A stretch of DNA of 20,229 nt from a virus, in IMG/VR virus record IMGVR_UViG_3300009537_000227, positions 1 through 20,229 of that record. One strand, 5' to 3'. The first letter of the stretch is position 1; each line of letters begins with the position of its first letter. A program made the translations under genes and the position numbers. Shown piece by piece: positions 4,527 to 17,244 of this stretch. A model generated the notes under the pieces. That model made no database searches, had not been told where the DNA came from, and saw only the letters and a list, made by a program, of their open reading frames with translations.

Positions 4527-5045
4527 TCACCACTTCCACGGCAGCCCGCCGATCACGTGGGCAAGCATGTGCCTCATCTTCGGGTCGCTCCTGAGCGTGC
4601 CGTCACCGCCCGCGCGCTTGCCGCCCACATCGGAGGAAAGGCCCGCGTTGATAGCCGTCGTGTCCGCCGCATCGCGCACGTTGAACTCGTCCTCGAGCAG
4701 CTCGATCGTCGAGGCGAGCCCGTCCTTGGCCAGCTTGAACGCGGACTCGAAGTTGCGGCCCTGAACGACTATGCACTCCCCGGCGAACATCGCACCGCGC
4801 ACCCAGCTGCCGTCGAGCATGCCATCGACCGAGAACATCCAGACGCGGTTTCGAGACCGGCTGTCCCCGGGGAGAGTGAAGTCCTTCTCCAGTCGCGGTC
4901 GAGCGTCCTTCAGGCGGTAGAGTTCGTCGGCCGTGAGGATCCGGCGCACCGCGTTCAGGTCGGTGCGCGCGCTGGCCACTGCCAGCTCGGTCGCCCCCGC
5001 TACTCCATCCGGTAGGTCGGTCGCTTGTACGGTGCTTTTTTCCAT
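4527..5045 (-). CDS. Unknown protein downstream of terL, 172 residues
   Basis: The gene starts at ATG 5045 behind a GGAGG site and overlaps the 3' end of terL by 46 nt. The product is soluble-looking and mixed alpha/beta. It has an N-terminal Ala/Asp-rich helix (ELAVASARTDLNAVRRIL), an EKDFTLPGDSRSRNRVWMF segment, a strand-rich middle (GAMFAGECIVVQGRNF), a helix (FKLAKDGLASTIELLEDEF), and a Gly-rich C-terminus ending IGGLPWKW. I do not recognise the family. Position between terL and the decoration and portal genes suggests a head-assembly accessory, but no motif supports this. A second open frame in the same place is arginine-rich and was treated as a shadow. Confidence 0.65.
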   Translation of the reverse strand: MEKSTVQATDLPDGVAGATELAVASARTDLNAVRRILTADELYRLKDARPRLEKDFTLPGDSRSRNRVWMFSVDGMLDGSWVRGAMFAGECIVVQGRNFESAFKLAKDGLASTIELLEDEFNVRDAADTTAINAGLSSDVGGKRAGGDGTLRSDPKMRHMLAHVIGGLPWKW

Positions 5046-6592
5046 CCCTCACCCTCCAGCCACGGGATCGTACCCGGTTTCGGTGTGTCGCCGCCCTCGG
5101 GCTTGGGAATGAACACCCTGCGCGGCCGGCTCATGCAGCCGTAGCGAAGCCCGTCAGGCGGGTGATCCTCGCCGTCGGTGTCCGCGTCCTCGGGCTTGAG
5201 CTCGTCGTGCTGCAGCCCCTCCAGCGTGCGGATCAGCGCCGGGCACGTGTCGAAGATGTAGAGCGTTGGCTCGTCAATCCCGTTCTCCGGGTCGTCCCCC
5301 TGCAGGCGCCCGCGGATCTGGTCCCAGCCGGGCATGCGCCGCTTGTCCGCCGGGCGCAACTCGAGCACCCGGCCCTTGCGCTTCACGCTCATCGCGGTCT
5401 CGGCCAAGCTCGGCCCGCCATCCTCATCGAACATGCTGGTGTCGACCACGTCGTACTCGATGATCTGGCCGGCCGATCGCGTGAGCACCCCGTCGGCCCA
5501 CTTCTTGACCGGCATCCTCACGCCCACGTTCTGCTGCTTCGGGTCGCACCCGTACCACTCGCGATAGACGATGAGCGCGCCGCGCGGGATCTTGATCTTG
5601 TTGCCGATCGTGCCCTCGGCCTTCATGTCGTCCTCGACGAGCGCGCCCCAGCCGGTCCAGAACGGTTTGGCCGAGCCCCAGTCGGTCATCGTGAATCGCT
5701 TCCACTCCTTGGGGATCTCGAACGGCTTGAGGCAGTGGCGCGCCCTCGAGAACTCAGGGAAGAAGCCGCCCGCGATCACGTTCCAGTCGCCCGACTCCAT
5801 CGCTTTCACCAGAGCCGGGTCCAGCAGGCCTCGCGTGCGCCGCACGTACTCGGGATCCTCGGCCATGCCGATCGGGTTGTCGCCCATCAGCGCCGGGATG
5901 AACTGGCGCACCATGCCACCCTCTTCGTCGGGCGTCTTCCACATGTCGTACGGGCGCGCCGAGTCGATGAATGCCTGCTTGACCCACTGGTGGCCGATGT
6001 TGCCCGGGTTCGATCCGCACAGCACGCGGGGAAACCAGTCCCACTCGTTGAGCTGACCATGCAGGCCCACCTCGCCCTTGCGGTAGTGCTTGGGGTAGCT
6101 GGGCTTGTAGGTCTTCAAGTCCTCCTCGAGCTTCACGCCGACCATGCGCGTGCGGAACCTGAGGTAGCGGTAGATCACCTCGAGGAACGTGGTCAGCTCG
6201 TCGACGATGAGCACGTGGATCTCGGCCCCGTGGTACTTGAAGCGGTGCGCCGGATCCTTGCAGTGGCACAGGAAGATGCGGCTGCCGTTCCAGAAGCGGA
6301 TCTCGGTCTCGACGATCTTGACCAAACCCTCGGCGACCCACACGGCGAGCATGTTGCGAAAGCCGTGCGGGCCCTCCATGTGGTTCTTGATCAGGTCGTC
6401 CTCGACCCGGCGGAAGATGTAGACGTTCAGCCCCGGGATCTCGTAGCACCAGCTGATGGCCGCGACGCGCTCGAGGTAGCTCTTGCCGCCGAATGCCGCG
6501 CCCCCGTACAGGATCTCGGTCGCCGGGCTCGAGAATGCGGTGTACTGCTTGGGCTGCAGCACCAGCTCGAGCGGAGCCTCACGCGCGCCCAC
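5000..6592 (-). CDS. terL: Terminase large subunit (DNA packaging ATPase-nuclease)
   Basis: The 530-residue protein is the motor that pumps DNA into the prohead and cuts it. The ATPase domain shows a Walker A-type loop GGAAFGGKS (residues 30-38), a Walker B VLIVDEL with D131 and E132, and a coupling motif GSNPGN (about 193-198). The C-terminal RNase H-like nuclease shows FTMTDWG with D304, VVDTSMFDEDGG near 385, and a late acidic segment DHPPDGLRYG near 488. Length is normal for the family. The start is GTG 6592, directly after an in-frame TAG, so it cannot be longer. It could begin slightly later at V11, and no good ribosome site precedes either. The terS gene lies upstream with three small genes between. 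Confidence 0.95.
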   Translation of the reverse strand: MGAREAPLELVLQPKQYTAFSSPATEILYGGAAFGGKSYLERVAAISWCYEIPGLNVYIFRRVEDDLIKNHMEGPHGFRNMLAVWVAEGLVKIVETEIRFWNGSRIFLCHCKDPAHRFKYHGAEIHVLIVDELTTFLEVIYRYLRFRTRMVGVKLEEDLKTYKPSYPKHYRKGEVGLHGQLNEWDWFPRVLCGSNPGNIGHQWVKQAFIDSARPYDMWKTPDEEGGMVRQFIPALMGDNPIGMAEDPEYVRRTRGLLDPALVKAMESGDWNVIAGGFFPEFSRARHCLKPFEIPKEWKRFTMTDWGSAKPFWTGWGALVEDDMKAEGTIGNKIKIPRGALIVYREWYGCDPKQQNVGVRMPVKKWADGVLTRSAGQIIEYDVVDTSMFDEDGGPSLAETAMSVKRKGRVLELRPADKRRMPGWDQIRGRLQGDDPENGIDEPTLYIFDTCPALIRTLEGLQHDELKPEDADTDGEDHPPDGLRYGCMSRPRRVFIPKPEGGDTPKPGTIPWLEGEGWKKAPYKRPTYRME

Positions 6593-7327: not shown

Positions 7328-7822
7328 TTACTCCTTTCTCACGGTGATGGACAGGACCGGCGTCGCTATCGGCGATCCGTCCGGATTGGCGACCGCGACG
7401 CGGTCACCGTAGAGCACGGGCAACACCTTGGCCACGAGCCACTTGCGGGTATCGACCCTCAACTTCATCCACTGCACGGCGGCACTATCGACGCGCACCA
7501 CCTCCTTGTCGCCCTTGCCGCCCGCATCGAGCGCGCTGAACGCAACCACCGGATCCTCGTCCGCGAGCTGCATCAATTCCTCGCTCTTGTGCGTCGCGTA
7601 GCTCGCGCGAGCCTCCCTGTCGGCCGCCTTGAGCATGTCGTTCGCGCTCGGCCCGCGCACGCGGCGGTAGAACGTGTTCCAGTCCGGCATCAGCGGATCG
7701 CGCAGGATGTTCAGGAGCGTCTCGCCCTGAGCATGGCGATGCAGAATCTCCAGCAGCACGTCGTCGGAATACTTCTCCTCGACGCCTCCGGGACCGGGCC
7801 CGCGTGGGGGGGTAGTGCCCAT
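7328..7822 (-). CDS. terS: Terminase small subunit (Sf6-type)
   Basis: The 164-residue protein has the pattern of Sf6-like small terminases, which recognise the phage DNA and load the large subunit. An N-terminal helix-turn-helix region covers about residues 20-60 (LLEILHRHAQGETLLNILRD, then MPDWNTFYRRV). A middle helix follows, ADREARASYATHKSEELMQL. The C-terminal motif LRVDTRKWLVAKVLPVLYGD is typical of the family. The start is ATG 7822; the ribosome site is weak (GAGGGG lies about 20 nt upstream). It is the first gene of the leftward block. The next gene follows after 3 nt. Confidence 0.9.
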   Translation of the reverse strand: MGTTPPRGPGPGGVEEKYSDDVLLEILHRHAQGETLLNILRDPLMPDWNTFYRRVRGPSANDMLKAADREARASYATHKSEELMQLADEDPVVAFSALDAGGKGDKEVVRVDSAAVQWMKLRVDTRKWLVAKVLPVLYGDRVAVANPDGSPIATPVLSITVRKE

Positions 7823-7847
7823 ATCCGGCTGAGTGTGCCTGCCCCTC

Positions 7848-7870
7848 GCTGTTCAGGCAAGCTGTTCAGG
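7848..7870. repeat. 10-bp direct repeat (GCTGTTCAGG twice, 13-bp period)
   Basis: GCTGTTCAGG occurs exactly at 7848-7857 and again at 7861-7870, separated by CAA. It sits 26 nt upstream of the terS start. It could be a protein-binding site for control of terS, or part of a packaging recognition site. Only the repeat itself is seen. Confidence 0.55.
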
Positions 7871-7885
7871 AATTCTCCCGGGGCC

Positions 7886-7906
7886 GGTCGCCGCCCTGTG
7901 GCGACC
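7886..7906 (+). terminator. Perfect 7-bp hairpin followed on + strand by TTTT
   Basis: GGTCGCC at 7886-7892 pairs with GGCGACC at 7900-7906 around the loop 7893-7899. On the + strand it is followed by TGCTGCTTTT (7907-7916), so it could be a weak intrinsic terminator for any rightward transcript. On the - strand it lies in the untranslated leader of terS, between the leftward promoter candidate and the gene, and may instead be a leader hairpin. Confidence 0.35.
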
Positions 7907-7912
7907 TGCTGC

Positions 7913-7941
7913 TTTTAACGAAGGCTACAACCCAAGATCAA
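7913..7941 (-). promoter_or_regulatory. Leftward sigma70-like promoter candidate for terS block
   Basis: On the - strand TTGATC (7941-7936) and TTAAAA (7918-7913) are separated by 17 bp. The -10 element is a poor match, so this is a moderate call. It would drive terS and everything to its left, with a leader of about 85 nt containing the hairpin at 7886-7906 and the direct repeat at 7848-7870. Confidence 0.35.
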
Positions 7942-7973
7942 CTACAAAGACTGAGATAGAGACGGGACAGGCC

Positions 7974-8021
7974 GTGACACCGTGACAGCACCGTGACCAT
8001 CCTGTGTGACACCAGCGTGAC
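7974..8021. repeat. Cluster of five GTGAC direct repeats (iteron-like)
   Basis: GTGAC begins at 7974, 7982, 7993, 8006 and 8017, with a related GTGA at 8037. Three copies are CCGTGAC or close to it. Spacings are 8, 11, 13 and 11 bp, close to one helical turn for most, so several could face the same side of DNA. The cluster lies just upstream of the rightward promoter candidate. It could be an operator array or an iteron-like binding site for the replication protein. Confidence 0.45.
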
Positions 8022-8025
8022 GCGG

Positions 8026-8054
8026 TTGCCTCCCGTGTGAAATGGTGGTAGGGT
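8026..8054 (+). promoter_or_regulatory. Rightward sigma70-like promoter candidate
   Basis: TTGCCT (8026-8031) and TAGGGT (8049-8054) are separated by exactly 17 bp. Predicted transcription would start near 8061, only a few bases ahead of the ATG at 8066, so the first transcript would be nearly leaderless. The -10 is imperfect. Confidence 0.4.
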
Positions 8055-8065
8055 CCCAGCCCACT

Positions 8066-8329
8066 ATGAGACGAAAAACGTGGGATGTTCTCGAGTGGGA
8101 TGACGAGCCCCAGAGCAAGGGCTGGACGAACCTGACCTGTGACTGCGGGGTTGATGCTGACGTTCCGTGCTCCTCGAGCGGGCCCAGCGTAATCGCCGGT
8201 ATGGGCATGTCGCTCGTGTTCGATCCTCCCGGGGCCGAGGCGCCAGAAAACTATCTCCCGACCAAGCTGCGCTGCCGCTACTGTCGCCGCATGTACAGCA
8301 GGAGCAAGAGGAAGGAGGCCACTACGTGA
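8066..8329 (+). CDS. Four-cysteine zinc-ribbon-like protein, 87 residues
   Basis: First gene of the rightward block. Cysteines at C25 and C27 (TCDCG) and C70 and C73 (CRYC) could bind one zinc ion, and C35 lies between. The C-terminus is basic (RRMYSRSKRK). A longer in-frame start at 8042 exists, but it overlaps the promoter candidate and has no ribosome site. ATG 8066 also lacks a good one and could be translated from a nearly leaderless mRNA. The stop overlaps the GTG start of the replication gene (GTGA). The role is unknown; DNA or RNA binding is plausible from the cysteine pattern and basic tail. The frame is well supported by coupling; the exact start is not. Confidence 0.65.
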   Translation: MRRKTWDVLEWDDEPQSKGWTNLTCDCGVDADVPCSSSGPSVIAGMGMSLVFDPPGAEAPENYLPTKLRCRYCRRMYSRSKRKEATT

Positions 8330-9120
8330 CTTGGGACCATGGTCAGATCTTCGCCCGCACATTCACGGGCTCGATGATAGGCAGGGGTGGTACGGTGTTC
8401 GCGGTCTGGACTTACGCGATCGCCAACAAGAGCCAGTACGGCAAGGTCGAGCTGAACCCACATCTTCTGGCGGCTGTTATCGGGGACCCGGTCGAGGAGA
8501 TCGGTAAGGCTCTGGATTATCTGTGCTCCCCGGACGAGCTTTCACGCACCAAGGATCACGACGGCCGTCGACTGATCAGGGAGGGGCAGTTCGACTACGT
8601 CGTGGTCAACGCCGCCAAGTACGGCTACGTGGTCGATCTCGAGGCGCGCCGGGCTGGTGACAGGGAGCGCAAGCACAGGGAGAGGGAGAGGGCGCGCGAG
8701 GGTCACACATCGAACGTGCCACGTGAAACATCACCACCGGCCGCGGCGCCGAAGCGCGCGAAGGCTGGGGCTCGTGGGTGCTCTCTGGAGAGCTGGCTCT
8801 CCGGGCACGGGGATCACCTCGAGGAGAAGGTGCGCCACATGGCCAACTGGTGCCGCACCTCTCGTGCGGATCTCAACCCGGCCGCCACGTTCGAGTCCTT
8901 CCGGGACTACTGGAAGGCGAACGCGAACCAGCGCACGGGCAAGAAGATCGACTGGGATGCGGCATGGCGCAACTGGGTCAGGAAGGAGCCTGTGGCCAAG
9001 CCCGGGCAGCAGGTGAGCGACGGCAAGATCACCTGCCGCGGCCTCCCGGGCAAGCCCTGCGGCAAGCGCGTCTCGAGCCACACGGACGGGCTGTGCGATG
9101 CCTGCTACCGCGAAAGATGA
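8326..9120 (+). CDS. Phage replication protein with N-terminal winged helix and C-terminal zinc motif
   Basis: Start GTG 8326 has GAAGGAGG 7 nt upstream and overlaps the preceding stop as GTGA, giving 264 residues. Residues about 10-105 look like a winged-helix domain found in phage replication initiators (FAVWTYAIANKSQYGKVELN, LLAAVIGDPVEEIGKALDYL, then FDYVVVNAAKYGYVVDLE). A very basic linker follows (about 107-125). Residues about 160-215 contain the C-terminal replication-protein pattern FESFRDYWKANANQRTG with DWDAAWRNWVRKE. The last 30 residues hold four cysteines (CRGLPGKPC, LCDAC) and form a probable zinc motif. It likely initiates replication or loads a helicase, as lambda O or DnaD-like proteins do; this is inferred. 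No helicase gene follows. Confidence 0.75.
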   Translation: MTWDHGQIFARTFTGSMIGRGGTVFAVWTYAIANKSQYGKVELNPHLLAAVIGDPVEEIGKALDYLCSPDELSRTKDHDGRRLIREGQFDYVVVNAAKYGYVVDLEARRAGDRERKHRERERAREGHTSNVPRETSPPAAAPKRAKAGARGCSLESWLSGHGDHLEEKVRHMANWCRTSRADLNPAATFESFRDYWKANANQRTGKKIDWDAAWRNWVRKEPVAKPGQQVSDGKITCRGLPGKPCGKRVSSHTDGLCDACYRER

Positions 9121-9335
9121 GCACCCTGCACCTCTACCGCGCCGGGGAGCAGCCGGCCACGCGCTACAGGGTTGGCCTGAACACGCGCAGCCCGTTCTGG
9201 GTGACGTGCCACCCGCGCACACAGCTGTGGGCGATGTGCTGCAAGCGTCGTCGCTACGCGAGGGGTCTCGTGGTGCAGGTGTACTACGACGCGATCTACC
9301 AGTGGTGCAAGCCCGGGCATGGATGCAAACGATGA
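9117..9335 (+). CDS. Small cysteine-rich basic protein, 72 residues
   Basis: ATG 9117 overlaps the stop of the replication gene as ATGA. The product is basic and has cysteines at C31, C41, C42, C64 and C70, with a run of arginines (CCKRRRYARG) and aromatic residues (VQVYYDAIYQWC). A small zinc- or nucleic-acid-binding protein is plausible. I recall small phage proteins with the same TR.P.W.TC.PRT.LWA pattern next to replication genes but know no function. Its stop overlaps the next start as ATGA. Confidence 0.75.
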   Translation: MSTLHLYRAGEQPATRYRVGLNTRSPFWVTCHPRTQLWAMCCKRRRYARGLVVQVYYDAIYQWCKPGHGCKR

Positions 9336-9643
9336 GCCAGCGCATCGTGCGCGACGACTCGGGGCTCCTGCGCTTCCCGTTCGATGCGACCAGCTGGGCC
9401 CGCGGCATGGCCCGCAGGAACCACTGGTGCAGCCTGTGCCAGCTCCTCGTGCCATCCGGGCAGATGATGTACCGCCCCATGCGCGGACGTCACGCGGGCG
9501 CCCGCGGCGGCTACCTCAGGCTGTGCTGGTGCTGCGCCCACTGGCTGATCGACGGCTGCCCCGACGAAGGCGTGAGCTCCACCCTCACCGCGCGCACCGG
9601 CCGCCTCCCGGGCTGGCTGGTCGGCGAGACCGAAAACACTTAA
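9332..9643 (+). CDS. Zinc-ribbon-like protein, 103 residues
   Basis: ATG 9332 overlaps the previous stop (ATGA). Cysteines C33 and C36 (HWCSLC) and C65, C67 and C68 (LCWCCAHW) with nearby histidines suggest a zinc-binding fold. The N-terminus holds RFPFDATSWARGMARRN and the C-terminus is polar (TARTGRLPGWLVGETENT). It is the last gene of the first rightward cluster; a long non-coding stretch follows. It may help the replication protein, judged only by position. I do not recognise the family. Confidence 0.7.
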   Translation: MSQRIVRDDSGLLRFPFDATSWARGMARRNHWCSLCQLLVPSGQMMYRPMRGRHAGARGGYLRLCWCCAHWLIDGCPDEGVSSTLTARTGRLPGWLVGETENT

Positions 9644-9675
9644 TCGATTCTTAAGACCTACTACAGGTTGTGGTG

Positions 9676-9704
9676 TTGCAATCGAGGATATTTTCGTGTA
9701 CACT
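9676..9704 (+). promoter_or_regulatory. Strong rightward sigma70-like promoter
   Basis: TTGCAA (9676-9681) and TACACT (9699-9704) are separated by exactly 17 bp. GTGTACAC (9696-9703), a perfect 8-bp palindrome, overlaps the -10 and could be an operator. Transcription would begin near 9711 and give a leader of about 415 nt before the first gene at 10128. This is one of the two best promoter matches in the window. Confidence 0.6.
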
Positions 9705-9770
9705 GGCGTCGTAGTTCGGTGGTCGGGCCCGGTGCCAGCCGGGTAGGAAAGAGGGAGTCTGGTGGGTCGT

Positions 9771-9811
9771 CCGGGAGCGCCGCCCTCCCGGGGTTCTCGG
9801 GACCGGGAACC
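9771..9811 (+). other. Two adjacent perfect hairpins
   Basis: Stem 1 is CCGGGAG (9771-9777) with CTCCCGG (9785-9791), loop 9778-9784. Stem 2 starts on the next base: GGTTCTCG (9792-9799) with CGGGAACC (9804-9811), one G-U pair and a GGAC tetraloop. Back-to-back stable stems with no gap suggest coaxial stacking in an RNA. Confidence 0.5.
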
Positions 9812-9850
9812 GCGGGCCGGAGTCAAGCCACGCAGTGAAGGGAGTCGTCG

Positions 9851-9865
9851 CGTGCATGATGCACG
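9851..9865. promoter_or_regulatory. Perfect 15-bp dyad (operator candidate)
   Basis: CGTGCAT and ATGCACG flank a single G at 9858. A one-base centre is a poor RNA loop but a normal shape for a dimeric repressor site. No second copy of the full sequence was found by eye. Confidence 0.35.
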
Positions 9866-9894
9866 TCACGGGCTCCAGCGAGGCAGCCTCAGGT

Positions 9895-9908
9895 GGTCAG
9901 TGGTCAGT
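9895..9908. repeat. Tandem 7-bp repeat GGTCAGT x2
   Basis: GGTCAGT at 9895-9901 is followed at once by an identical copy at 9902-9908. It is short and may be chance, but it lies in the gene-free leader. Confidence 0.3.
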
Positions 9909-9970
9909 CGGGATTCAGGTTGGGCCGGGGGTGTTGCTGCTGGGAGGGCCGGACTTCCGCAGGTCAGAGT

Positions 9971-10027
9971 CTCCCGGGTTCGCCCGGGGGTACTCGAGAG
10001 CGCCGCGTCGCGGTGTTCTCGAGTGCC
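9971..10027 (+). other. UUCG-capped hairpin followed by 15-18 bp hairpin
   Basis: CCCGGG at 9973-9978 and 9983-9988 enclose TTCG, an especially stable tetraloop; the stem can extend to 9971 and 9990. Next, ACTCGAGA (9992-9999) pairs with TCTCGAGT (10017-10024). The stem continues inward to 10006 and 10010 with two G-U pairs, leaving the 3-nt loop 10007-10009. It can extend outward to 9989 and 10027, which competes with the first hairpin at 9989-9990, so the two could be mutually exclusive at their junction. It is the strongest hairpin I found in the window. Confidence 0.55.
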
Positions 10028-10041
10028 TGTCGCTGCGCTGG

Positions 10042-10058
10042 GATCGTTCGGAACGATC
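10042..10058. promoter_or_regulatory. Perfect 17-bp dyad (operator candidate)
   Basis: GATCGTTC (10042-10049) and GAACGATC (10051-10058) flank one G. Length and centre fit a site for a dimeric helix-turn-helix protein, such as the one encoded at 18525-18728, though nothing links them directly. As RNA it could form a 7-bp stem with a CGG loop. Confidence 0.4.
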
Positions 10059-10127
10059 GAGCGGTGGCCACGCACTGGGGCTTCGCGCGCTGCCCTCGAA
10101 AGCGCGCTCCTCGAGAAGGAGATCACC

Positions 10128-10301
10128 ATGGAATCCGCAGTCAAGTCGTTCAACTCGCTCAGCGCGTTCGCCGCGTACGCCGCGGCCAGCAACCTCAGCA
10201 TCAAGGTCATGTCGGTCAAGGGCTCGCTCTACAGGCTCGCTGCGATCGACGCGTGGGGCAACAAGGTTGCCTACGCTTCCGGCTTCAAGGTGAAGTCGTG
10301 A
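10128..10301 (+). CDS. Small protein, 57 residues, first gene after structured leader
   Basis: ATG 10128 has AAGGAG 6 nt upstream. The product begins MESAVKSFNSLSAFAAYAAA, an Ala/Ser-rich helix, followed by strand-like stretches (SIKVMSVKGSLYRLAAI, GNKVAYASGFKVKS). There are no cysteines and no signal peptide. It is slightly basic. The family is not recognised. As the promoter-proximal gene behind a long leader, it is a candidate early regulator or host take-over protein, but this is position only. Its stop overlaps the next start as GTGA. Confidence 0.7.
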   Translation: MESAVKSFNSLSAFAAYAAASNLSIKVMSVKGSLYRLAAIDAWGNKVAYASGFKVKS

Positions 10302-10540
10302 TCGCCCGCGTGTTGTTCGTGCTCGCCCTGATCGCCGCAATGCTCGCGCTCCCCGACGCGATGTCGGTGGACGCGGTGTGCGGCAGTGACAGCGAGTGCA
10401 TGGAGATGCACGGCGGCGACGGTGGCCCCGTGCCCGTGTCGTTCGACAACCTGCACCCGAGCGAGTGGGCGGGTGGGCTGATGGAGCCCGCCGTGTACCA
10501 CTTCGAGGGCCCGATCGAAGTTCGCTACTGGGAGGCATAG
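10298..10540 (+). CDS. Small exported cysteine-containing protein, 80 residues
   Basis: Start GTG 10298 overlaps the previous stop (GTGA); AAGG lies about 9 nt upstream. Residues 1 to about 25 form a signal peptide: basic IAR, a hydrophobic run VLFVLALIAAMLAL, and a small-residue end. The mature part has two cysteines (CGSDSEC, C28 and C34) that could form a disulphide, then MEMHGGDGG, a Pro/Ser stretch and an acidic C-terminus ending PIEVRYWEA. Small exported proteins with a C.SD.EC.EMHGGDG motif occur in many phages, with no function I know. It probably acts in the periplasm. No lipobox is seen. Confidence 0.75.
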   Translation: MIARVLFVLALIAAMLALPDAMSVDAVCGSDSECMEMHGGDGGPVPVSFDNLHPSEWAGGLMEPAVYHFEGPIEVRYWEA

Positions 10541-10867
10541 ATGGCACGCAGCCCAAGCATCAAGGAGATCAACAGCGCGATGTCGCGCTCGATCCGCAGT
10601 TTCTGCAAGAAGCTCTCCCACCTTCGCCCCGAGCTGGCATTCCGCTCGGACGGCCGAGGCAAGTTCGTTTCGCGCATCAACGGTGTGAGCGTCATCGTGC
10701 ATGGCAAAGTCATCCGCGCCTCGAATGGTGAGGTGGCTGGCTGGCCGATCGCGAACGTGATCTCCGGCGAGACCGAGAGCGTGTTCTACAACCCGCCGTG
10801 GCTCGAGGGTGGATGCTCGCCCAGCGCGGTGATCGCTGCATACGACCACCATCGAAAAGGAGCCTGA
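10541..10867 (+). CDS. Conserved-looking small protein, 108 residues
   Basis: ATG 10541 follows the previous stop TAG directly, with GGGAGG 5 nt upstream. The N-terminus is a basic helix (SIKEINSAMSRSIRSFCKKL), followed by beta-like stretches (AFRSDGRGKFVSRINGVSVI, HGKVIRAS) and a C-terminal SPSAVIAAYDHHRKGA. It is soluble and basic. The family is not recognised. It belongs to the run of small early genes behind the promoter at 9676-9704. Confidence 0.75.
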   Translation: MARSPSIKEINSAMSRSIRSFCKKLSHLRPELAFRSDGRGKFVSRINGVSVIVHGKVIRASNGEVAGWPIANVISGETESVFYNPPWLEGGCSPSAVIAAYDHHRKGA

Positions 10868-10870
10868 CCT

Positions 10871-11125
10871 ATGGCCAAGAACCTGTTCGGCAAGGCCCGC
10901 AAGCCGGGCAACGCATACGCCAACTGCTACAGCAACGGCTGGCGCTGGGAGATCCTGAAGCTGTACAAGTCGCTCGAGGCCTCGCGCAACGACCCGTTCG
11001 CGCGTGCCTTCTGCTACGTCCACGGCATCGCCGACGAGTACGGTGATGTCTACCTGCGCGACATCCCGGGCGCGTTCTTCGCGCTCGACGCTGCCTACGC
11101 AGACCTGATGAAAAAGGAGGTGTGA
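10871..11125 (+). CDS. Conserved small phage protein, 84 residues
   Basis: ATG 10871 follows AAAGGAG at 8 nt. The sequence pattern NAYANCYSNGWRWEILKLYK, then DPFARAFCYVHG, EYGDVYLRDI, resembles a small family common in phages of proteobacteria with the shape NPYA....GW.W..LK.Y....DP.ARW.....EYGDTY..DI. The function of that family is unknown to me. There is no signal peptide or membrane segment. It is followed at 2 bp by the next gene. I am confident it is a gene. Confidence 0.8.
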   Translation: MAKNLFGKARKPGNAYANCYSNGWRWEILKLYKSLEASRNDPFARAFCYVHGIADEYGDVYLRDIPGAFFALDAAYADLMKKEV

Positions 11126-11126
11126 A

Positions 11127-11525
11127 ATGTTCCTGCTGCACAACGAGATGACCGGGATGCCGGTCACGGTGTACGCGAACCAAGCCGACCGCGAGGGCGT
11201 CGTGCTGGTCGGCTACTCGCACAACCGCAAGTCGTGGGCGCTCGCCGAGTACGTGATGCCCGCCGGGCGCACGTTCCTGCGCCTGCTCCCGCTGGATGAG
11301 CACGGCAACATGGACCCGGACGGTGGGCGCAGCGTGAGCTACAACGCGCTGCCCAAGGGCGCGCTCCTCGCGCTCAGGGCAAATGCGGACGCGGTGCTCC
11401 CGCTCATCAGGGGCGGCTTCGATCGTGAGGTTGCCCCGGACAGCAAGGGGTGGCATCGCCGCCGCATCGAGTCCGAACACACCAAGGCGGCCAACGTCAT
11501 CGCCAGCGTGCTCTACGGTAGCTGA
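11127..11525 (+). CDS. Unknown early protein, 132 residues
   Basis: ATG 11127 is preceded by AAGGAGGTG, a nearly full match to the end of 16S rRNA, 5 nt away. The N-terminus FLLHNEMTGMPVTVYAN resembles a beta-hairpin. A hydrophobic middle LAEYVMPAGRTFLRLLPLDE follows, and a charged C-terminus with two Arg pairs ends in ANVIASVLYGS. No known motif is recognised. It is the last gene before a gap with three hairpins, so it may end one transcription or processing unit. Confidence 0.75.
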   Translation: MFLLHNEMTGMPVTVYANQADREGVVLVGYSHNRKSWALAEYVMPAGRTFLRLLPLDEHGNMDPDGGRSVSYNALPKGALLALRANADAVLPLIRGGFDREVAPDSKGWHRRRIESEHTKAANVIASVLYGS

Positions 11526-11574
11526 GCGTTCAGCCTAGAGGGGCTTCGTGCCCCTCGTGGGTGGATGTTCCACC
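11519..11574 (+). other. Three tandem hairpins in the gap after 11525
   Basis: GCTGA/TCAGC (11521-11534, loop GCGT), GAGGGGC/GCCCCTC (11538-11556, loop TTCGT) and GGTGG/CCACC (11560-11574, loop ATGTT) follow one another. None has a U tail. The ribosome site of the next gene (GGAGG, 11586-11590) follows. They could be RNA-processing or stability elements. Confidence 0.45.
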
Positions 11575-11595
11575 GATCAACGAACGGAGGTTCAG

Positions 11596-11844
11596 ATGAA
11601 ACCGAAGTCAATGACCAACGAGGCCCTCATGCGCGACATGATGCGCTTCAGCAAGTACGGCGCGCTCTCCCAGATGTTCATCATCGACGCGCTGACCAAG
11701 GCATCCAACCGCGTGGTCGAGGCCGGGCTCGAGGTGGTGCGCAAGCAGATGGGCGAGAACTCGATGATCCACCCGGACGCGTGGTACGGCGTCGCCAAGG
11801 AGATCAAGGAGCGCATGGACGCCAACTACAGGAGGGCCGAATGA
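11596..11844 (+). CDS. Conserved small phage protein, 82 residues
   Basis: ATG 11596 has GGAGG 5 nt upstream; an in-frame ATG at 11548 lies in the hairpin region and was rejected. The product contains MTNEALMRDMMRFSKYGALS, then QMFIIDALTKASNRVVEAGL and an end reading WYGVAKEIKERMDANYRR. This overall pattern (helical, with YGAL.Q.F...A and W.GVAKEIK..MD) is one I recall in small genes of many tailed phages, with no known function. It is mostly alpha-helical. Its stop overlaps the next start as ATGA. Confidence 0.8.
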   Translation: MKPKSMTNEALMRDMMRFSKYGALSQMFIIDALTKASNRVVEAGLEVVRKQMGENSMIHPDAWYGVAKEIKERMDANYRRAE

Positions 11845-12131
11845 CCACCACCACCCGAAAGCCCGCAACGCCGCTGCCGTGCAACCTTGAGACGTTGCGG
11901 AATCCCGAGATGGTTAAACGGTGGTTCGATCAGATCGGGACCGATGCCGCAGACGAGATTGACCGCCTCCGCGCCGACCGCGCGCGCCTCATTGCCGCGC
12001 TGCGCGAGTGCAAGAACTATATCGAGCATATCGAGAAACCACGGGCAGGCACTAGCGCGGTGACTTATCGACAGCAAGCGGCTGCGCTGAATACCGCCCG
12101 CGCCCTCCTGCGCGAACTGGGGGAACTGTGA
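11841..12131 (+). CDS. Small coiled-coil protein, 96 residues
   Basis: ATG 11841 overlaps the preceding stop (ATGA) and follows AGGAGGG. The N-terminus MTTTTRKPATPLPCN is polar. Then comes a Trp-containing helix (PEMVKRWFDQIGTDAADEID) and a long heptad-like helix (RLRADRARLIAALRECKNYI) followed by QQAAALNTARALLRELGEL. It is probably a helical oligomer. Its first residues match those of the next gene (MTTTRKP), which hints at a local duplication. The family is not recognised. Confidence 0.75.
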   Translation: MTTTTRKPATPLPCNLETLRNPEMVKRWFDQIGTDAADEIDRLRADRARLIAALRECKNYIEHIEKPRAGTSAVTYRQQAAALNTARALLRELGEL

Positions 12132-12376
12132 CCACCACCCGCAAGCCACTGTACGACCGGATCCGCGACAACGATCCGTACGTGCGCCTGTACGCGCTGA
12201 TCGAGTTGGCGAAGCTCAGGCGCAGGGCGGAGATGGCCGATGATCTCGCGGACGCGCTCAGCAGGATGCTGGCGCAGGCGGCGCTGCCGCCAGACGCGCC
12301 CGCCGCGCCAGACGAGCCTTTCGACGAGTGCCGGGCGGCGCTCGATCGCTACGTTGAATTCAACAAGGAGGTGTGA
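12128..12376 (+). CDS. Small helical protein, 82 residues
   Basis: GTG 12128 overlaps the previous stop (GTGA); GGGGGAA lies upstream. The first residues MTTTRKPLYDRIRDN are related to the start of the preceding protein. A helix (VRLYALIELAKLRRRAEMAD) follows, then an Ala/Pro/Asp-rich low-complexity linker (AALPPDAPAAPDEPFDE) and a C-terminal helix. The function is unknown. It ends with AAGGAGGTGTGA, where the ribosome site of the next gene is read as codons. Confidence 0.7.
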   Translation: MTTTRKPLYDRIRDNDPYVRLYALIELAKLRRRAEMADDLADALSRMLAQAALPPDAPAAPDEPFDECRAALDRYVEFNKEV

Positions 12377-12378
12377 CC

Positions 12379-12822
12379 ATGAAAATTTCCGAGATGAAGA
12401 AGTCCCTGCACAACGACGTGCGGCGCAACTTCAACGCCGCGCGCGAGTGCGCGAGGGGCATCAAGGCATCGATGCCGGCGGCGGTGCGCCTGATGAAGGC
12501 GCTCAACCGCTTCAAGCTCGACCCGAGCATGTACGCGGGCGGCTCTGGCAAGGTCTACTTCACCATCTACCGCGACTACGAGAGCTTCAAGGATGCGGAG
12601 CTGGTGGCAATCCTCGAGGCGGCGATCGACGTGCTCGGCGAGGGCGACATCCGCTCCCACGACTTCCCCGAGATGGCCGTGCGTGAGTACAACATCTCGA
12701 ACGCGTTCTGCTCGTTCGAGATGAACGCCCGCCTCAAGGGTGAAGGTACGCCCACCTGCCGCCGGGTGAAGGTCGGTGAGTCGATCACGACCACGCCCAA
12801 GTACGAGTTCCGCTGCGACTGA
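12379..12822 (+). CDS. Unknown early protein, 147 residues
   Basis: ATG 12379 has AAGGAGG at 12365-12371, 7 nt away, which decides this start over the GTG at 12373. The N-terminal helix is basic (ISEMKKSLHNDVRRNFNAAR). Then come VRLMKALNRFKLDPSMY, strand-like GSGKVYFTIYRDYESFKDAE, helix LVAILEAAIDVLGEGD, a C-terminal beta-rich part (VREYNISNAFCSFEMNARL) and a KYEFRCD end. Three of its cysteines fall in the last 40 residues. It may be a mixed alpha/beta host-directed or DNA-metabolism protein, but no motif identifies it. Confidence 0.75.
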   Translation: MKISEMKKSLHNDVRRNFNAARECARGIKASMPAAVRLMKALNRFKLDPSMYAGGSGKVYFTIYRDYESFKDAELVAILEAAIDVLGEGDIRSHDFPEMAVREYNISNAFCSFEMNARLKGEGTPTCRRVKVGESITTTPKYEFRCD

Positions 12823-12879
12823 AGCGGCACGGCCCGCGCCGAGAACACACTGCAGCGCGAGGTCTACAAGGCCGCACTG

Positions 12880-12903
12880 CCCCGGGGCAATCACGCCCCG
12901 GGG
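12880..12903 (+). other. Perfect 9-bp hairpin next to ribosome site
   Basis: CCCCGGGGC (12880-12888) pairs with GCCCCGGGG (12895-12903) around AATCAC. The ribosome site of the next gene begins 2 nt later (AAGGA, 12906). No U run follows. A translational or RNA-stability element is likelier than a terminator. Confidence 0.5.
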
Positions 12904-12915
12904 ACAAGGAAGGAG

Positions 12916-13161
12916 ATGAGCATGGCGATGACGAAGAAGTACTACGAGATGATCGCCGGGATCTTGCGGTACCGGTTTGAGCACGCCACCTTGTGCATGA
13001 ACAACGAACGGTTGCCAGATCGCATCCGAGATGGCTGGGTGTGCAGGGCGTCCGAGGTGGACTGCGTGGCGGACGATCTTGCGCGAGCGTTCGCAGCGGA
13101 CAACCCGCGCTTTGACCGGGCGCGCTTTCTCAAGGCCTGCGGGCTGAAGGAGGTCGAATGA
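12916..13161 (+). CDS. Conserved small phage protein, 81 residues
   Basis: Three in-frame ATGs lie at 12916, 12922 and 12928. AGGAG ends directly before 12916 and 6 nt before 12922, so 12922 may be the true start. The core KKYYEMIAGILRYR, then ADDLARAFAADNPRFDRARF with LKACGL is a pattern I recall in many phage and mobile-element small proteins (KK.YE.IA..., ADDL..DNP.F.R.RFL.ACG). The function is unknown. It is alpha-helical, soluble. The stop overlaps the next start as ATGA. Confidence 0.8.
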   Translation: MSMAMTKKYYEMIAGILRYRFEHATLCMNNERLPDRIRDGWVCRASEVDCVADDLARAFAADNPRFDRARFLKACGLKEVE

Positions 13162-13412
13162 AATATCCGTGGATCGAGAAGGAGGAGGAGCTGCGCGACG
13201 GCGTGACGATGAAGACCGTGCAGGAGTTTCCTCACGGGCCGTGGAACTACACGATCCGCAGCACGGTTGGGCCCACCCCGGTCGAGCTTGTGATGGAGGG
13301 TCTCTTCAGGGACTGGCCGAAAGAGGGCTACGGGACCTACCTCGTGCGTTGGCTCGAGGGTGACAACGATGAAGTCGGCGCGATCGTGCGCCGGTACGAT
13401 TCCTGCGACTGA
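13158..13412 (+). CDS. Small acidic protein, 84 residues
   Basis: ATG 13158 follows AAGGAGG at 4 nt and overlaps the previous stop (ATGA). It begins MKYPWIEKEEELRDGVTMKT and continues VQEFPHGPWNYTIRSTVG, VELVMEGLFRDWPKEGYG, TYLVRWLEGDNDEVGAIVRR. It is acidic overall with several tryptophans and looks like a single beta-rich domain. The family is not recognised. Confidence 0.7.
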   Translation: MKYPWIEKEEELRDGVTMKTVQEFPHGPWNYTIRSTVGPTPVELVMEGLFRDWPKEGYGTYLVRWLEGDNDEVGAIVRRYDSCD

Positions 13413-13424
13413 AAGGAGGTGAGC

Positions 13425-13529
13425 ATGGCGAAGAAGTTCCCTTGGCCCTGCAAGGGCTACGGTGTGCCTCACGGCTGGGCGGCGGGCCGATGGTGGTTCG
13501 TGTGCAGCCGATGCCGCTGGAGCGTCTGA
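13425..13529 (+). CDS. Tiny zinc-ribbon-like protein, 34 residues
   Basis: This short gene fills the gap between 13412 and 13529. ATG 13425 has a full AAAGGAGGTG site 4-8 nt upstream. The product is MAKKFPWPCKGYGVPHGW, then AAGRWWFVCSRCRWSV. It is basic, Trp-rich, with C9 and C27/C30 (CSRC) plus H16, enough ligands for one zinc. The stop shares a base with the next start (TGATG), so it is coupled on both sides. The strong ribosome site and exact fit support a real gene despite its length. Confidence 0.65.
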   Translation: MAKKFPWPCKGYGVPHGWAAGRWWFVCSRCRWSV

Positions 13530-13771
13530 TGGCAACCAAGAGCGTGAGACCCGTGACGCGTGAGTCCAGCGCGTTTGTTCGGGAGCGTGGATTGCGACCT
13601 GTGATGGTCACGATCCACGACAGCCTCTTGCTGCTCAGGCCGAAAGGCCTGCGCCGCGAGGAGGTACTGGACGTGGCGGCCGCCTATCACACGGCGGTCA
13701 AGGTGCGGGTCTCGCGCGAGCGGTTCGAGCGCGCGCAGGCCCGCAAGGCGAAACGGAAAGGAGGTGGTTGA
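13529..13771 (+). CDS. Conserved small basic phage protein, 80 residues
   Basis: ATG 13529 overlaps the preceding stop as TGATG, with GGAG 6 nt upstream. It begins MATKSVRPVTRESSAFVRER, then GLRPVMVTIHDSLLLLRPKG, then LRREEVLDVAAAYHTAVKVR, and ends in a Lys/Arg-rich tail (ARKAKRKGGG). The VRPVTRE.SAFVR.RG...V.VTI......LR.KGLR pattern is one I recall from small genes in phages of Gram-negative bacteria, with no known function. The basic tail suggests nucleic-acid contact. Confidence 0.75.
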   Translation: MATKSVRPVTRESSAFVRERGLRPVMVTIHDSLLLLRPKGLRREEVLDVAAAYHTAVKVRVSRERFERAQARKAKRKGGG

Positions 13772-13774
13772 ATC

Positions 13775-14620
13775 ATGGAAGCTGAACGCATCACGCCGAC
13801 CAAGGCGAAGGAGTACCTGCTCTTGCGCGGCGCGAACCGTGTGCTCTCGGACGGCAAGGTCTTGGAGTACGCGATCGCGATGGAGCAGGGGCAGTGGTCC
13901 CTCAACGGCGAGACAATCAAGTTCGACGACGAGGGCAAGCTGTTCGACGGGCAGCACCGGCTCGAGGCCTGCGTGTTGGCCAAGGTGCCGTTCGAGACCT
14001 ACGTCGCGCGCGGCATCAGCGACGAGCGAGCGATGGCCACGGTCGACACGGGCAAGGCGCGAAGCCACACTGACGTGTGGTCGATCGCAGGGCACAAGAA
14101 CGCGGCAGCGATCTCCACGATCGCGCTGATGTTCTACATGGTCGAGCACGGACGCGTTTCGTGGTCCGGCTACGGTGGGCGGCGCATTCCGCGCAACTCT
14201 CCGGTGGCGGCCGGGCTGAAGAAGGTGCCGCAGTTCGCGGGCAACGTCCGCAAGGATGAACTGCTCGCGTGGGCCGAGCCGTTCATGCCCGAGCTGGATC
14301 GGGCGGCGTGCGCGGTGTACACGCACAAGCAGCGCATCGCCGGGCCTCAGGCGGCGGGCGCGTTGTACCTGTACGCCCATCGCAAGGATCCGGGGGAGGC
14401 CCTCTCCTTCCTCAAGGATCTCTCGCAGGGGGTCGGCCTGAACAAGGGCGACCCGGTGCTGACCGCGCGCGAGCATCTGATCGCTCGCTCGGTTGGCGCA
14501 CGACTGCCGCGCACGTACGTGCTTGGCGTTCTCATCAAGGCGTGGAACGCGCGCCGCGATGGTCGCCAGATAAAGGTGCTGCGCGTAGTCGACGGCGAGC
14601 CCTTCCCGAAGGTGAAGTAG
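13775..14620 (+). CDS. ParB-like nuclease-fold protein
   Basis: The 281-residue product starts at ATG 13775 with AAAGGAGG 10 nt upstream. Residues about 5-85 match a ParB/Srx-like family found in phages and actinobacteria: ITPTKAKEYLL, NRVLSDGKVLEYAIAMEQGQ, WSLNGETIKFDDEGKLFDGQ, and the hallmark DGQHRLEA with D58, Q60, H61 and R62. The remaining 190 residues are helical (ISTIALMFYMVEHG, HLIARSV, VLGVLIKAWNARRDG) and could bind DNA or partners. The family's biochemical role is unsettled. ParB folds bind or hydrolyse CTP and some phage members nick DNA, so a role in DNA handling is inferred. No ParA partner is present. Confidence 0.8.
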   Translation: MEAERITPTKAKEYLLLRGANRVLSDGKVLEYAIAMEQGQWSLNGETIKFDDEGKLFDGQHRLEACVLAKVPFETYVARGISDERAMATVDTGKARSHTDVWSIAGHKNAAAISTIALMFYMVEHGRVSWSGYGGRRIPRNSPVAAGLKKVPQFAGNVRKDELLAWAEPFMPELDRAACAVYTHKQRIAGPQAAGALYLYAHRKDPGEALSFLKDLSQGVGLNKGDPVLTAREHLIARSVGARLPRTYVLGVLIKAWNARRDGRQIKVLRVVDGEPFPKVK

Positions 14621-14625
14621 CTGGA

Positions 14626-14653
14626 CCGGGCCGCTATCCGGCGGCCCGGATTT
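14626..14653 (+). terminator. 8-bp GC hairpin followed by ATTT
   Basis: CCGGGCCG (14626-14633) pairs with CGGCCCGG (14642-14649) around an 8-nt loop, and ATTT follows. The T run is too short for a strong intrinsic terminator, so it is a weak or partial one at best. The ribosome site of the next gene is 8 nt further on. Confidence 0.4.
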
Positions 14654-14669
14654 CTCCAAGGAGATCTAG

Positions 14670-15767
14670 ATGAAAACAGGAAAGAGCTTGACCCAGCTGG
14701 CGCAGGAGATCGAGCGCCAGCGGGACGCGCGCAAGGATTACGTCGCTCCCACGGAAAAGATGACGATGATGGCGAGCGATGCGCAGCCCGGCGCGAGGCT
14801 GATGCTGAACGGCGGCAAGATCGCACCGCTGCCGATGTCTCTCAACCCGCTGGCGCACGGGCAGATGGCGGAGTACACGGGTGTTCCAAAGCCCTACTAC
14901 GACCTCATGCTGTCTCAGGCGCCGCAGCTGCTCGCGAAGAACGTCAACCACTGGCTGGCGGCTGCCAACGAGAAGCGCATGGTCCGCACGATGGACGGCA
15001 ACGTGCGGGCGATTCTGTCCGACCGCTACCGGCCGCTGGAGAACGCGGATCTAGCGGAGGCTGTGCTGCCCGTGCTGATGGAGCAGGAGCTGGTCATCGT
15101 CAGCTGCGAGATCACCGAGCGCCGGATGTACATCAAGGCCTTCGACAAGAGGATCGAGCGCGAGATCACCATGAAGGGCACCGACGGGGCGCACACATTC
15201 CTCAAGGATGTGGTCTTCCCCTCGATCGTCATCTCGAACAGCGAGGTCGGTTGCGGCGCTCTCTCGGTGGCTGCCGGGATCTTCACCGGCGGCTGCACCA
15301 ACTTCGCCGCGTTCAACGATAGCCGCATGCGCAAGTACCACGTGGGCGGCAAGGCGCTGGACAGCGAAGACGTGTACGCGCTGCTCAGCGATAAGACCAA
15401 GGAGCTGACCGATGCGGCTATCTGGTCGCAGACGCGCGACGTGGTGAAGAGCGCGTTCGAGATCGCCCGGTTCGAGGAGTTGGTTGGCCGGGTGCAGGAG
15501 ACCACGACCCAGAAGATCTCGGGCGACGTGGTCAAGGTGGTCGAGGTTGCCGGTGAGCGCTTCGGGATGAACAAGTCCGAGCGCGGGTCGGTCCTCAAGC
15601 ACCTGATCGAGGGTGGTGACCTCAGCCGTTACGGGCTGTTCAATGCCGTGACGCGCACCGCCGAAGACCTCGAGGATTACGAGCGTGCGACCGAGTTCGA
15701 GCGTGCGGGCGGCAAGGTGATCGAGCTGCCGCGCTCGGAGTGGGAAGCGCTCGCCAAGGCAGCGTAG
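14670..15767 (+). CDS. DUF932-type phage/plasmid protein
   Basis: The 365-residue product starts at ATG 14670 with AAGGAG 6 nt upstream. The core NEKRMVRTMDGNVRAILSDR then YRPLENADLAEAVLPVL, followed by ERRMYIKAFDKRIEREITM and a Gly/Cys-rich centre (NSEVGCGALSVAAGIFTGGC), matches my memory of DUF932 proteins. These are carried by plasmids and phages and have no established biochemical activity, though some are linked to conjugation or DNA transfer. The C-terminal half is helical and charged. Length is typical. The position next to a ParB-like gene suggests DNA maintenance, which is inference. Confidence 0.8.
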   Translation: MKTGKSLTQLAQEIERQRDARKDYVAPTEKMTMMASDAQPGARLMLNGGKIAPLPMSLNPLAHGQMAEYTGVPKPYYDLMLSQAPQLLAKNVNHWLAAANEKRMVRTMDGNVRAILSDRYRPLENADLAEAVLPVLMEQELVIVSCEITERRMYIKAFDKRIEREITMKGTDGAHTFLKDVVFPSIVISNSEVGCGALSVAAGIFTGGCTNFAAFNDSRMRKYHVGGKALDSEDVYALLSDKTKELTDAAIWSQTRDVVKSAFEIARFEELVGRVQETTTQKISGDVVKVVEVAGERFGMNKSERGSVLKHLIEGGDLSRYGLFNAVTRTAEDLEDYERATEFERAGGKVIELPRSEWEALAKAA

Positions 15768-15777
15768 GGTAGCAGTG

Positions 15778-15816
15778 CAGGCCTCGTGACAGGGGGCCTG
15801 AGCGGCAATCCTGCCG
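15778..15816 (+). other. Two hairpins in the gap after 15767
   Basis: CAGGCC (15778-15783) pairs with GGCCTG (15795-15800) around an 11-nt loop. CGGCA (15803-15807) pairs with TGCCG (15812-15816) around ATCC. The ribosome site GGAGG (15822-15826) follows. No U run. Confidence 0.35.
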
Positions 15817-15831
15817 GATACGGAGGTGCAC

Positions 15832-16173
15832 ATGGGTGACCGCAGAAACGTGATCATCAAGGACGACCCGAAGAAGGTGGGCGTGGCGCTCTACTCCCAC
15901 TGGGGCGGATCCGCACTGCCGGGCGTGCTGCGCTCGGCGCTGGTGCGCGGATTGGCGCGCTGGAACGACGCGCCATACCTCGCTCGCATCATATTCTGCG
16001 AGATGGTGAGGGGCGCGGAGATGGGCGAGACCGGCTTCGGCATTTCCGCCGGGGACGACATGTGCGAAGCGAGCGACATCGACATCGAGGTCGATGTGGC
16101 TGGCCAGCGCCTGAGGCTTGGCAAGGGAAAGCCGTGGAGTTCTTTCAGCGAGTTCATCAAGGGGGTCGGATGA
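15832..16173 (+). CDS. Conserved small phage protein, 113 residues
   Basis: ATG 15832 has GGAGG 5 nt upstream, better than the GTG at 15826. The sequence opens MGDRRNVIIKDDPKKVGVAL with YSHWGGSALPGVLRSALVRG, then RWNDAPYLARIIFCEMVRG, ETGFGISAGDDMCEASDIDI. This is a pattern I recall from many phages and actinobacterial prophages (MGDR.NV......V.LY.HW.G......L..AL.R..RWND..YL.RI.F..M). No function is known. It is a compact alpha/beta domain without a signal peptide. The stop overlaps the next start as ATGA. Confidence 0.8.
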   Translation: MGDRRNVIIKDDPKKVGVALYSHWGGSALPGVLRSALVRGLARWNDAPYLARIIFCEMVRGAEMGETGFGISAGDDMCEASDIDIEVDVAGQRLRLGKGKPWSSFSEFIKGVG

Positions 16174-16922
16174 AGAACCTGAAGCTGTGGGCCGCGTTCA
16201 TCGTGCTGCTGTTGCTGTCGGGGTTGATCATCATCAGCATCCCGGCGGCCGCGGCGGCCGGGATGCGCTTCGAGGCTCTGGGCGGGACGTGCCGCTACTC
16301 GGAGGTCGGCAACTACATCTGGCAGAACGACAAGTACGAGATCAACAAGAGCCTCTCGTCCGGGTGCGGCATGCTCGCGGTGTCGTCGGTCCCGAGGAAC
16401 GCTGGCACCGTCGCGTTCGGGTGGCGCGTGGCCTACACCGAGCTCGGGACTGCGAGCATCATGGGCGTGTACCCGCTGGTCGACGAGGAGCAAAAGCTGC
16501 CCGCGTTTGATGGGGCCGCGTGCAACCCATCGACAGCATCAGGGTGCCTCGGTCGCGGCTACGCCAGTCAGAGCGCGCGCGGCGTGAGTGCCGGGTGGGT
16601 GGGTGAGTGGCGCGCAGGACCGCTACTCGTCGGCGGTGAGCTTGGGCTCTACGTCTACGACGGCGAGTTCAACGTCACCCTCTATCCCGAGCCTAAGGGG
16701 GCGCGCAGCGTGGACTGGATGAGCGCCTCCGGGACGCACATCCGCTGGCGCGGCATCCAAGCCACGCCGTTCGTCGGCGTCACGCTTCGACACGAGTACC
16801 TCATGGCAATGGTGCGCGTCTACGGCAACGTGCGCGCGGCTGAGCACGGCTGCGGCTATTGCTCCGGGCTTGCCAAGGGGCCGCTGACGCAGGTTCTCGT
16901 TGGTCTCTCGATCAATTTTTGA
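16170..16922 (+). CDS. Predicted outer-membrane beta-barrel protein
   Basis: ATG 16170 overlaps the previous stop (ATGA), with GGGGG upstream, giving 250 residues. Residues 1 to about 30 form a signal peptide (KNLK, then hydrophobic LWAAFIVLLLLSGLIIISI and AAAAAG). The mature part alternates hydrophobic and polar residues in strands such as TVAFGWRVAYTELGTASIMG, GVSAGWVGEWRAG, LLVGGELGLYVYDGEFNVTL, IQATPFVGVTLRHEYLMAMV. It ends LTQVLVGLSINF, with the terminal phenylalanine typical of barrels recognised by BamA. Four or more cysteines lie in loop-like regions. It may alter the host surface, for example in superinfection exclusion; that is inference. A periplasmic beta protein is the main alternative. 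Confidence 0.65.
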   Translation: MKNLKLWAAFIVLLLLSGLIIISIPAAAAAGMRFEALGGTCRYSEVGNYIWQNDKYEINKSLSSGCGMLAVSSVPRNAGTVAFGWRVAYTELGTASIMGVYPLVDEEQKLPAFDGAACNPSTASGCLGRGYASQSARGVSAGWVGEWRAGPLLVGGELGLYVYDGEFNVTLYPEPKGARSVDWMSASGTHIRWRGIQATPFVGVTLRHEYLMAMVRVYGNVRAAEHGCGYCSGLAKGPLTQVLVGLSINF

Positions 16923-16935
16923 AAGGAGGTGCACC

Positions 16936-17244
16936 ATGATTCCAAACGTGAACGACATCATCGACTACGAGGAAGGCAATCTGGATCACGAGTCGGCTGC
17001 GAAGATGATGCAGGGCATGATCAACAGTGGCATGGCGTGGCAGATGCAGGGCTCGTACGGAAGGGCCGCGATGGCCGCGCTCGAGTCCGGCGACTGCATG
17101 CTCGGCGAGGTCGGCCACCGCGACTTCTGGGGCTCGTACGTGCCCAGCAGGAGCGAGGTCAAGGCCGGCACCAAGGGCAGCCGTGCGCTCGTCGTGGAAG
17201 CTCACGGCGAGGAATACGCGGCCATGCTCGAGAGCGTGTCGTGA
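16936..17244 (+). CDS. DUF7417-like small protein, 102 residues
   Basis: ATG 16936 has AAAGGAGGTG 5-6 nt upstream. The first 60 residues match a small family common in phages: NVNDIIDYEEGNLDHESAA, then MMQGMINSGMAWQMQGSYGR, then AAMAALESGDC (pattern: D.I.YE.GELD.......Q.LVNSGMAW.LQG.YGR.A..LIEAG). I recall this as DUF7417, with unknown function. The C-terminal 40 residues (PSRSEVKAGTKGSRALVVEA) are extra to that core. It is soluble. The stop overlaps the next start as GTGA. Confidence 0.75.
   Translation: MIPNVNDIIDYEEGNLDHESAAKMMQGMINSGMAWQMQGSYGRAAMAALESGDCMLGEVGHRDFWGSYVPSRSEVKAGTKGSRALVVEAHGEEYAAMLESVS

Follow-up and report, generated by a model that had tools for sequence, protein, structure and literature searches.

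A conserved structured leader RNA predicted at the head of a rightward phage operon

What is the role of 484 nt without a credible gene, located just upstream of a long block of phage genes? This question is raised by IMG/VR record IMGVR_UViG_3300009537_000227, a virus contig of 20,229 bases (hereafter the window, i.e. the whole stretch of DNA analysed) with about 65% G+C, which no phage record matches at the DNA level. The initial annotation described here a strong promoter followed by a long structured leader in an otherwise gene-packed phage, and proposed either a cis-acting antitermination or regulatory RNA for an operon of roughly 18 genes, or a replication origin. Two relatives were reached via TerL, namely L002 (TerL 75% identical) and L004 (TerL 68% identical), and both carry a homologous RNA. 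The main elements of the window are as follows.

1137-3638, leftward: portal (family match)
5000-6592, leftward: large terminase (family match)
7328-7822, leftward: small terminase (family match)
8329-9120, rightward: replication-initiation-like gene, upstream of the Cys-rich gene and the leader
9332-9643, rightward: gene for a small Cys-rich, zinc-finger-like protein without known family, adjoining the leader region
9644-10127, plus strand: candidate leader region, between the Cys-rich gene and ATG 10128
9676-9704, plus strand: predicted promoter, TTGCAA (9676-9681), 17 nt, TACACT (9699-9704), with a predicted +1 at about 9711
10128-10301, plus strand: first operon gene, 57 aa, with homologs at 4919-5089 in L002 (56%) and 5352-5528 in L004 (30%)
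14670-15767, plus strand: phrog_1362 gene, within the operon

The rightward operon (10128-17582) comprises about 18 predicted genes, as announced, most of them without a function assigned by PHROGs or Pfam; the 57-aa product of the first gene has no Pfam or PHROG match. The description of the genome as gene-packed is nearly right, one other large non-coding gap being present (7823-8166, 344 nt), which separates the divergent small terminase and replication genes. Several observations concern the surrounding genes. The Cys-rich protein has two relatives within L002 (5600-5884 and 6893-7105). A stretch of 80 aa (window 13442-13771, L002 1402-1641) is 89% identical between the two phages, the other matched early proteins showing 36-73% identity. 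A perfect inverted repeat, CCCCGGGG-CAATCACG-CCCCGGGG, is found at 12880-12903, without a U-run and shortly 5' of the gene at 12916. To the right of the operon (17586-19855) lie genes for a RusA-like resolvase, a PDDEXK endonuclease and a YqaJ/RecE-like exonuclease.

The 484 nt are indeed devoid of a credible gene. None of the reading frames of the leader stays open in the relatives, including the extension of the first gene from GTG 9762, since the candidate frames are interrupted by a stop or a frame break in L002, L004 or both; a protein conserved across the region, which the initial annotation named as a possible refutation, was thus looked for and no such frame is kept. The promoter was located exactly by the initial annotation, spacing and coordinates included, but "strong" is overstated: with 8 of 12 consensus bases it is moderate and falls below the cut-off of our promoter scan (9 of 12). 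Counterparts are present just 5' of the conserved RNA start in L002 (TTGCTT-18-TACCGT) and L004 (TTGACA-17-TAGCGT), and apart from these hexamers the promoter stretch upstream of the RNA start cannot be aligned with either relative. In two independent comparisons, blastn similarity to the leader begins at 9710 (L002) and 9706 (L004), i.e. at the predicted +1. From this point, the following elements of the leader RNA can be proposed.

9711-9811, plus strand: 5' domain with helices P1-P3, based on matches of covariance model R1 and on covariation
9728-9743, plus strand: P1 hairpin, CCCGG[UGCCAG]CCGGG, with invariant UGCC in the loop; 5 pairs, 2 of them changed on both sides, paired in the three phages
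9761-9769, plus strand: invariant linker GGTGGGTCG between P1 and P2, identical in the window, L002 and L004
9771-9791, plus strand: P2 hairpin, 7 bp, loop beginning with CGCYG; 3 of 7 pairs changed on both sides, paired in the three phages
9792-9811, plus strand: P3 hairpin, without spacer after P2; 2 of 7 pairs changed on both sides and 2 on one side, paired in the three phages
9841-9876, plus strand: P4, a long hairpin followed by invariant AGCGAGG (9877-9883), L002 and L004 having hairpins of another sequence at this position
9973-10058, plus strand: variable region with strong hairpins (CCCGGG-UUCG-CCCGGG at 9973-9988, a 19-bp stem at 9988-10028, and 10042-10058), its sequence not conserved in L002 and L004
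10085-10121, plus strand: 3' module, a hairpin (10085-10107) followed by a Shine-Dalgarno hairpin, CUCCU-CGAGA-AGGAG (10107-10121), in four copies in three phages

The 5' domain was recognised by model R1 at 9711-9811 in the window (95 bits), 5412-5516 in L002 (89 bits) and 6455-6559 in L004 (67 bits). For covariation, the first 101 nt of the three sequences were aligned, hand-checked and trimmed by hand to 97 gap-free columns. Across the three phages, all 57 cells of P1-P3 are paired and 7 of the 19 pairs have changed on both sides, while controls with slid partners give 37-68% pairing and 0-2 two-sided changes. The comparison with related phages suggested in the initial annotation thus shows pairing that is conserved with compensatory changes, and covariation from three sequences is good but not final evidence for P1-P3. 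Invariant bases cluster in the loops of P1 (UGCC) and P2 (CGCYG) and in the linker GGUGGGUCG. The P4 counterparts were matched by eye, with AGCGAGG identical in all three phages. A whole-leader RNAalifold prediction on a MAFFT alignment was discarded, the alignment being poor past the first 100-190 nt, and no global closing helix is claimed. The gene that follows is 10128 in both the window and L002 and a homolog of gene 10871 in L004, yet the RNA stays at the operon head.

Similarity starting at the predicted +1, three covarying helices and no conserved reading frame together support a structured leader RNA well. The comparisons indicate that this leader is a real, homologous and narrowly distributed family of structured non-coding RNA at the operon head, beginning at the predicted transcription start.

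Many hairpins are visible in the leader, at least eight, without U-runs, and a scan found no terminator-like site on the plus strand of the region; this agrees with the at least six strong hairpins lacking a U run that had been annotated. One of them, the 19-bp hairpin at 9988-10028 with a 3-nt loop, has a form absent from L002 and L004. The whole 417-nt leader has a lower fold energy on the plus strand than 100 of 100 dinucleotide shuffles (z -2.63), and its complementary strand shows no excess (z -0.64). Since the leaders of the relatives L002 and L004 reach only -1.28 and -1.64, and the first 175 nt of the window leader -0.67, fold energy by itself is weak evidence in such G+C-rich sequence.

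We then consider how widely this RNA is distributed. The Rfam search suggested in the initial annotation returned no family at gathering level in the window, nor in L002, L004 or L140 (a phage that shares gene 10871 and the phrog_1362 gene). At relaxed level no credible score was obtained for the region, the best being the Xanthomonas sRNA sX14 (RF02233). This RNA shares with the leader two G+C-rich hairpins of similar spacing, and the match was rejected as chance-level (score 19.8 bits, gathering cut-off 80, E 0.24, in a non-conserved part of the leader). Among 62 loci, the covariance model gave nothing above 18.3 bits beyond the three members. Relatives found via TerL, the gene 10871 protein and phrog_1362 yielded no further homolog of the RNA by blastn, nhmmer or covariance model. 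Phage records show no DNA-level similarity to the region at E 1e-5, and raising the limit to E 10 adds only short matches of chance level; plasmids gave no credible match. No match was found in 300 genomes from the order of a Roseateles genome and 289 from the class of an Afipia genome, a weak negative as this set is without positive control. Among viral contigs, a degenerate DNA pattern from the P1-P2 core matched only L002 and L004. For another pattern, GGAGTNAAGCCACGCAGTG, common to the window and L004, the remaining matches look like chance, without a comparable leader around them. Within the searches made, this candidate family is therefore absent from Rfam and has the window, L002 and L004 as its only members.

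More distant phages display other leaders. In L140, a leader of about 330 nt that cannot be aligned comes after TTGACA-19-TATAAT (fold z -2.74; -2.27 in a repeat run), and in L174, one of about 220 nt comes after TTGCAA-17-TATATC (fold z -5.05). The L174 leader (7662-7895), of very low fold energy for its composition, precedes a rightward gene block, with TerL leftward. Both phages thus have predicted structured leaders that cannot be aligned with the window RNA and stand at a comparable place. As many other phrog_1362 phages are without a long leader, it is a trait of a subset of them. The divergent gaps of L169, L181, L187 and L203 showed no convincing structured leader. In L050, an intergenic region near TerL (8343-8800) has a fold z of -5.4 on the minus strand and no Rfam match, with a tRNA nearby (7896-7967).

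The 3' module is separate from the 5' domain and lies directly 5' of the start codon. The window and L002 have one copy each and L004 has two, and the genes behind these copies are of two different kinds. Its stems vary between copies and CUCCU is constant (UCCU in one copy). In L004, one copy stays with the homolog of gene 10128, which is no longer the first gene, and the second ends the leader. Two two-sided changes were counted, and covariation of the module is only suggestive because 45 of 500 shuffles do as well.

Within the operon, strong terminator-like hairpins were found before the phrog_1362 gene in three phages.

Window 14626-14649, plus strand: terminator-like hairpin 20 nt before the phrog_1362 gene, with a weak U-tract (ATTTCT)
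L002 959-984, minus strand: terminator-like hairpin before the phrog_1362 homolog, with a weak U-tract
L140 9909-9928: terminator-like hairpin before the phrog_1362 homolog

The distance to the gene is 20 nt in the window, and 20 and 24 nt in L002 and L140, which would be too short to hold a promoter. Such hairpins are present at 4 of 78 other phrog_1362 loci and before 64 of 1167 control genes (5.5%). In L004, which also has the RNA, the phrog_1362 gene is not preceded by such a hairpin. In the window, the weak U-tract and the Shine-Dalgarno hairpin (CUCC/GGAG) that the hairpin abuts suggest that 14626-14649 may instead be a translation element. The association between leader and internal hairpins is a post hoc observation on few phages.

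The leader RNA probably controls transcription or translation of the gene block behind it. The direct evidence reaches only a conserved structured leader RNA, as read from sequence comparison, and the leading reading of its mechanism, held tentatively, is a cis-acting antitermination leader. Transcription from the promoter at 9676-9704 would open the rightward operon with a long structured 5' leader RNA, whose 5' domain (P1-P3 and P4) would most likely act in cis on the transcribing RNA polymerase and could make it resistant to pausing and termination across the roughly 18 genes, with no dedicated phage protein. A parallel can be drawn with the put RNA of phage HK022, to which this larger RNA would be unrelated, and the 3' module would probably tune translation of the first gene. 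Circumstances favour antitermination: no second plus-strand promoter was found in 10000-20229, no N- or Q-like gene was recognised, and a terminator-like hairpin precedes the phrog_1362 gene in three phages. The constant place of the RNA at the operon head despite a differing next gene, and the leaders of L140 and L174 at a comparable place, also count in its favour. It is weakened by the poor U-tracts in the window and L002, by L004 lacking such a hairpin and by the post hoc nature of the link. The initial annotation had recognised no N- or Q-like gene, and PHROGs and Pfam recognise no antiterminator among the predicted early proteins compared with them, most of which are without family in a record that may be a fragment; since the window is a 20-kb contig, an antiterminator could be encoded elsewhere in the genome. 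Of the original proposal, the structured leader is borne out by covariation and by a start at the +1, while antitermination itself is compatible with the data and circumstantially favoured rather than demonstrated.

Other explanations can account for part of these observations. The leader might act after transcription, by protecting the operon mRNA from nucleases or by controlling how the first genes are translated. The 3' hairpin and the Shine-Dalgarno hairpin would then form a translational operator, to which a phage protein, for instance the 57-aa product, might bind. The occurrence of the module in four copies whose stems differ while CUCCU is kept agrees with this, as does the copy that remains with gene 10128 in L004 while another ends the leader; nevertheless, this explanation seems doubtful, as it leaves unexplained why a 5' domain lying over 300 nt away from that start codon should be conserved, with invariant bases in loops and linker, and the Shine-Dalgarno hairpin has only 5 bp, with weak covariation of the module. 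A non-coding RNA processed or terminated from the leader could also act in trans on a host RNA or protein, the operon being downstream merely by arrangement. Conservation is highest in a compact 5' domain, where loop and linker sequences are invariant, and past this domain both the sequence and the following gene vary, as would be expected of such an RNA, but no plus-strand terminator follows this domain, the RNA is directly 5' of the operon in all three phages and other phages keep a structured leader at a comparable place, so that we regard action in trans as unlikely.

A DNA element, e.g. a protein-binding region or the annotated replication origin, could be invoked because of the replication-initiation-like gene just upstream. 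It is very improbable: no iterons occur in or near the region, conservation starts at the predicted transcription start and includes compensatory pair changes, and in L004 no replication-gene homolog adjoins the RNA. As for a missed protein-coding region, such as an N-terminal extension of the first gene, ORF 9762-10301 is open in the window, yet the interruptions in L002 and/or L004 and a strong ribosome-binding site immediately 5' of ATG 10128 leave it hardly credible and close to refuted.

How would an antitermination leader compare with known systems? Antitermination of the lambda nut/N type, which would fulfil this role at the start of an early operon, needs the N protein and boxA/boxB; no N-like gene is recognised here, and no boxA-like sequence was noticed by eye in the leader. 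The EAR (eps-associated) antitermination RNA of Bacillales resembles what is proposed here, being a structured RNA for which action in cis on RNA polymerase has been suggested in a long operon, whereas the leader has no credible Rfam match. To our knowledge, very few systems of protein-free RNA elements modifying RNA polymerase are known, chiefly put. The put RNAs of HK022 (putL and putR) are about 70 nt long, with two long bulged stem-loops arranged nearly side by side in a V with a triplex, and putL sits directly after its promoter (PMC9378689). They bind the zinc-binding domain of the RNA polymerase beta-prime subunit and suppress termination without a phage protein (PMC9378689). The leader is like put in being an RNA just 3' of a phage promoter, with stem-loops and no protein factor recognised, P2 and P3 being adjacent as the two put stem-loops are. 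It differs in its conserved domain, which spans 101 nt and has three stems that are short and perfect, with P4 in addition, within a leader of about 417 nt. The analogy drawn by the initial annotation hence holds for place and for the adjacency of two stem-loops, and is only loose for architecture. Judged by the description of put, membership is not supported: the two agree in location and perhaps in what they are for, but their form differs, and we do not class the leader as put. It is rather unlikely, though conceivable, that the leader represents a new class of phage RNA that alone makes the host RNA polymerase termination-resistant, a counterpart of put with an unrelated fold, of which group members would carry different, unalignable RNAs in the same place. 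In any case, the leader is a previously undescribed, compact and covarying candidate at an operon head. If it does not act on elongation, it would still be a structured phage RNA family that is new and has no Rfam entry; if it does, the class of which put is the chief known example would gain an independent fold.
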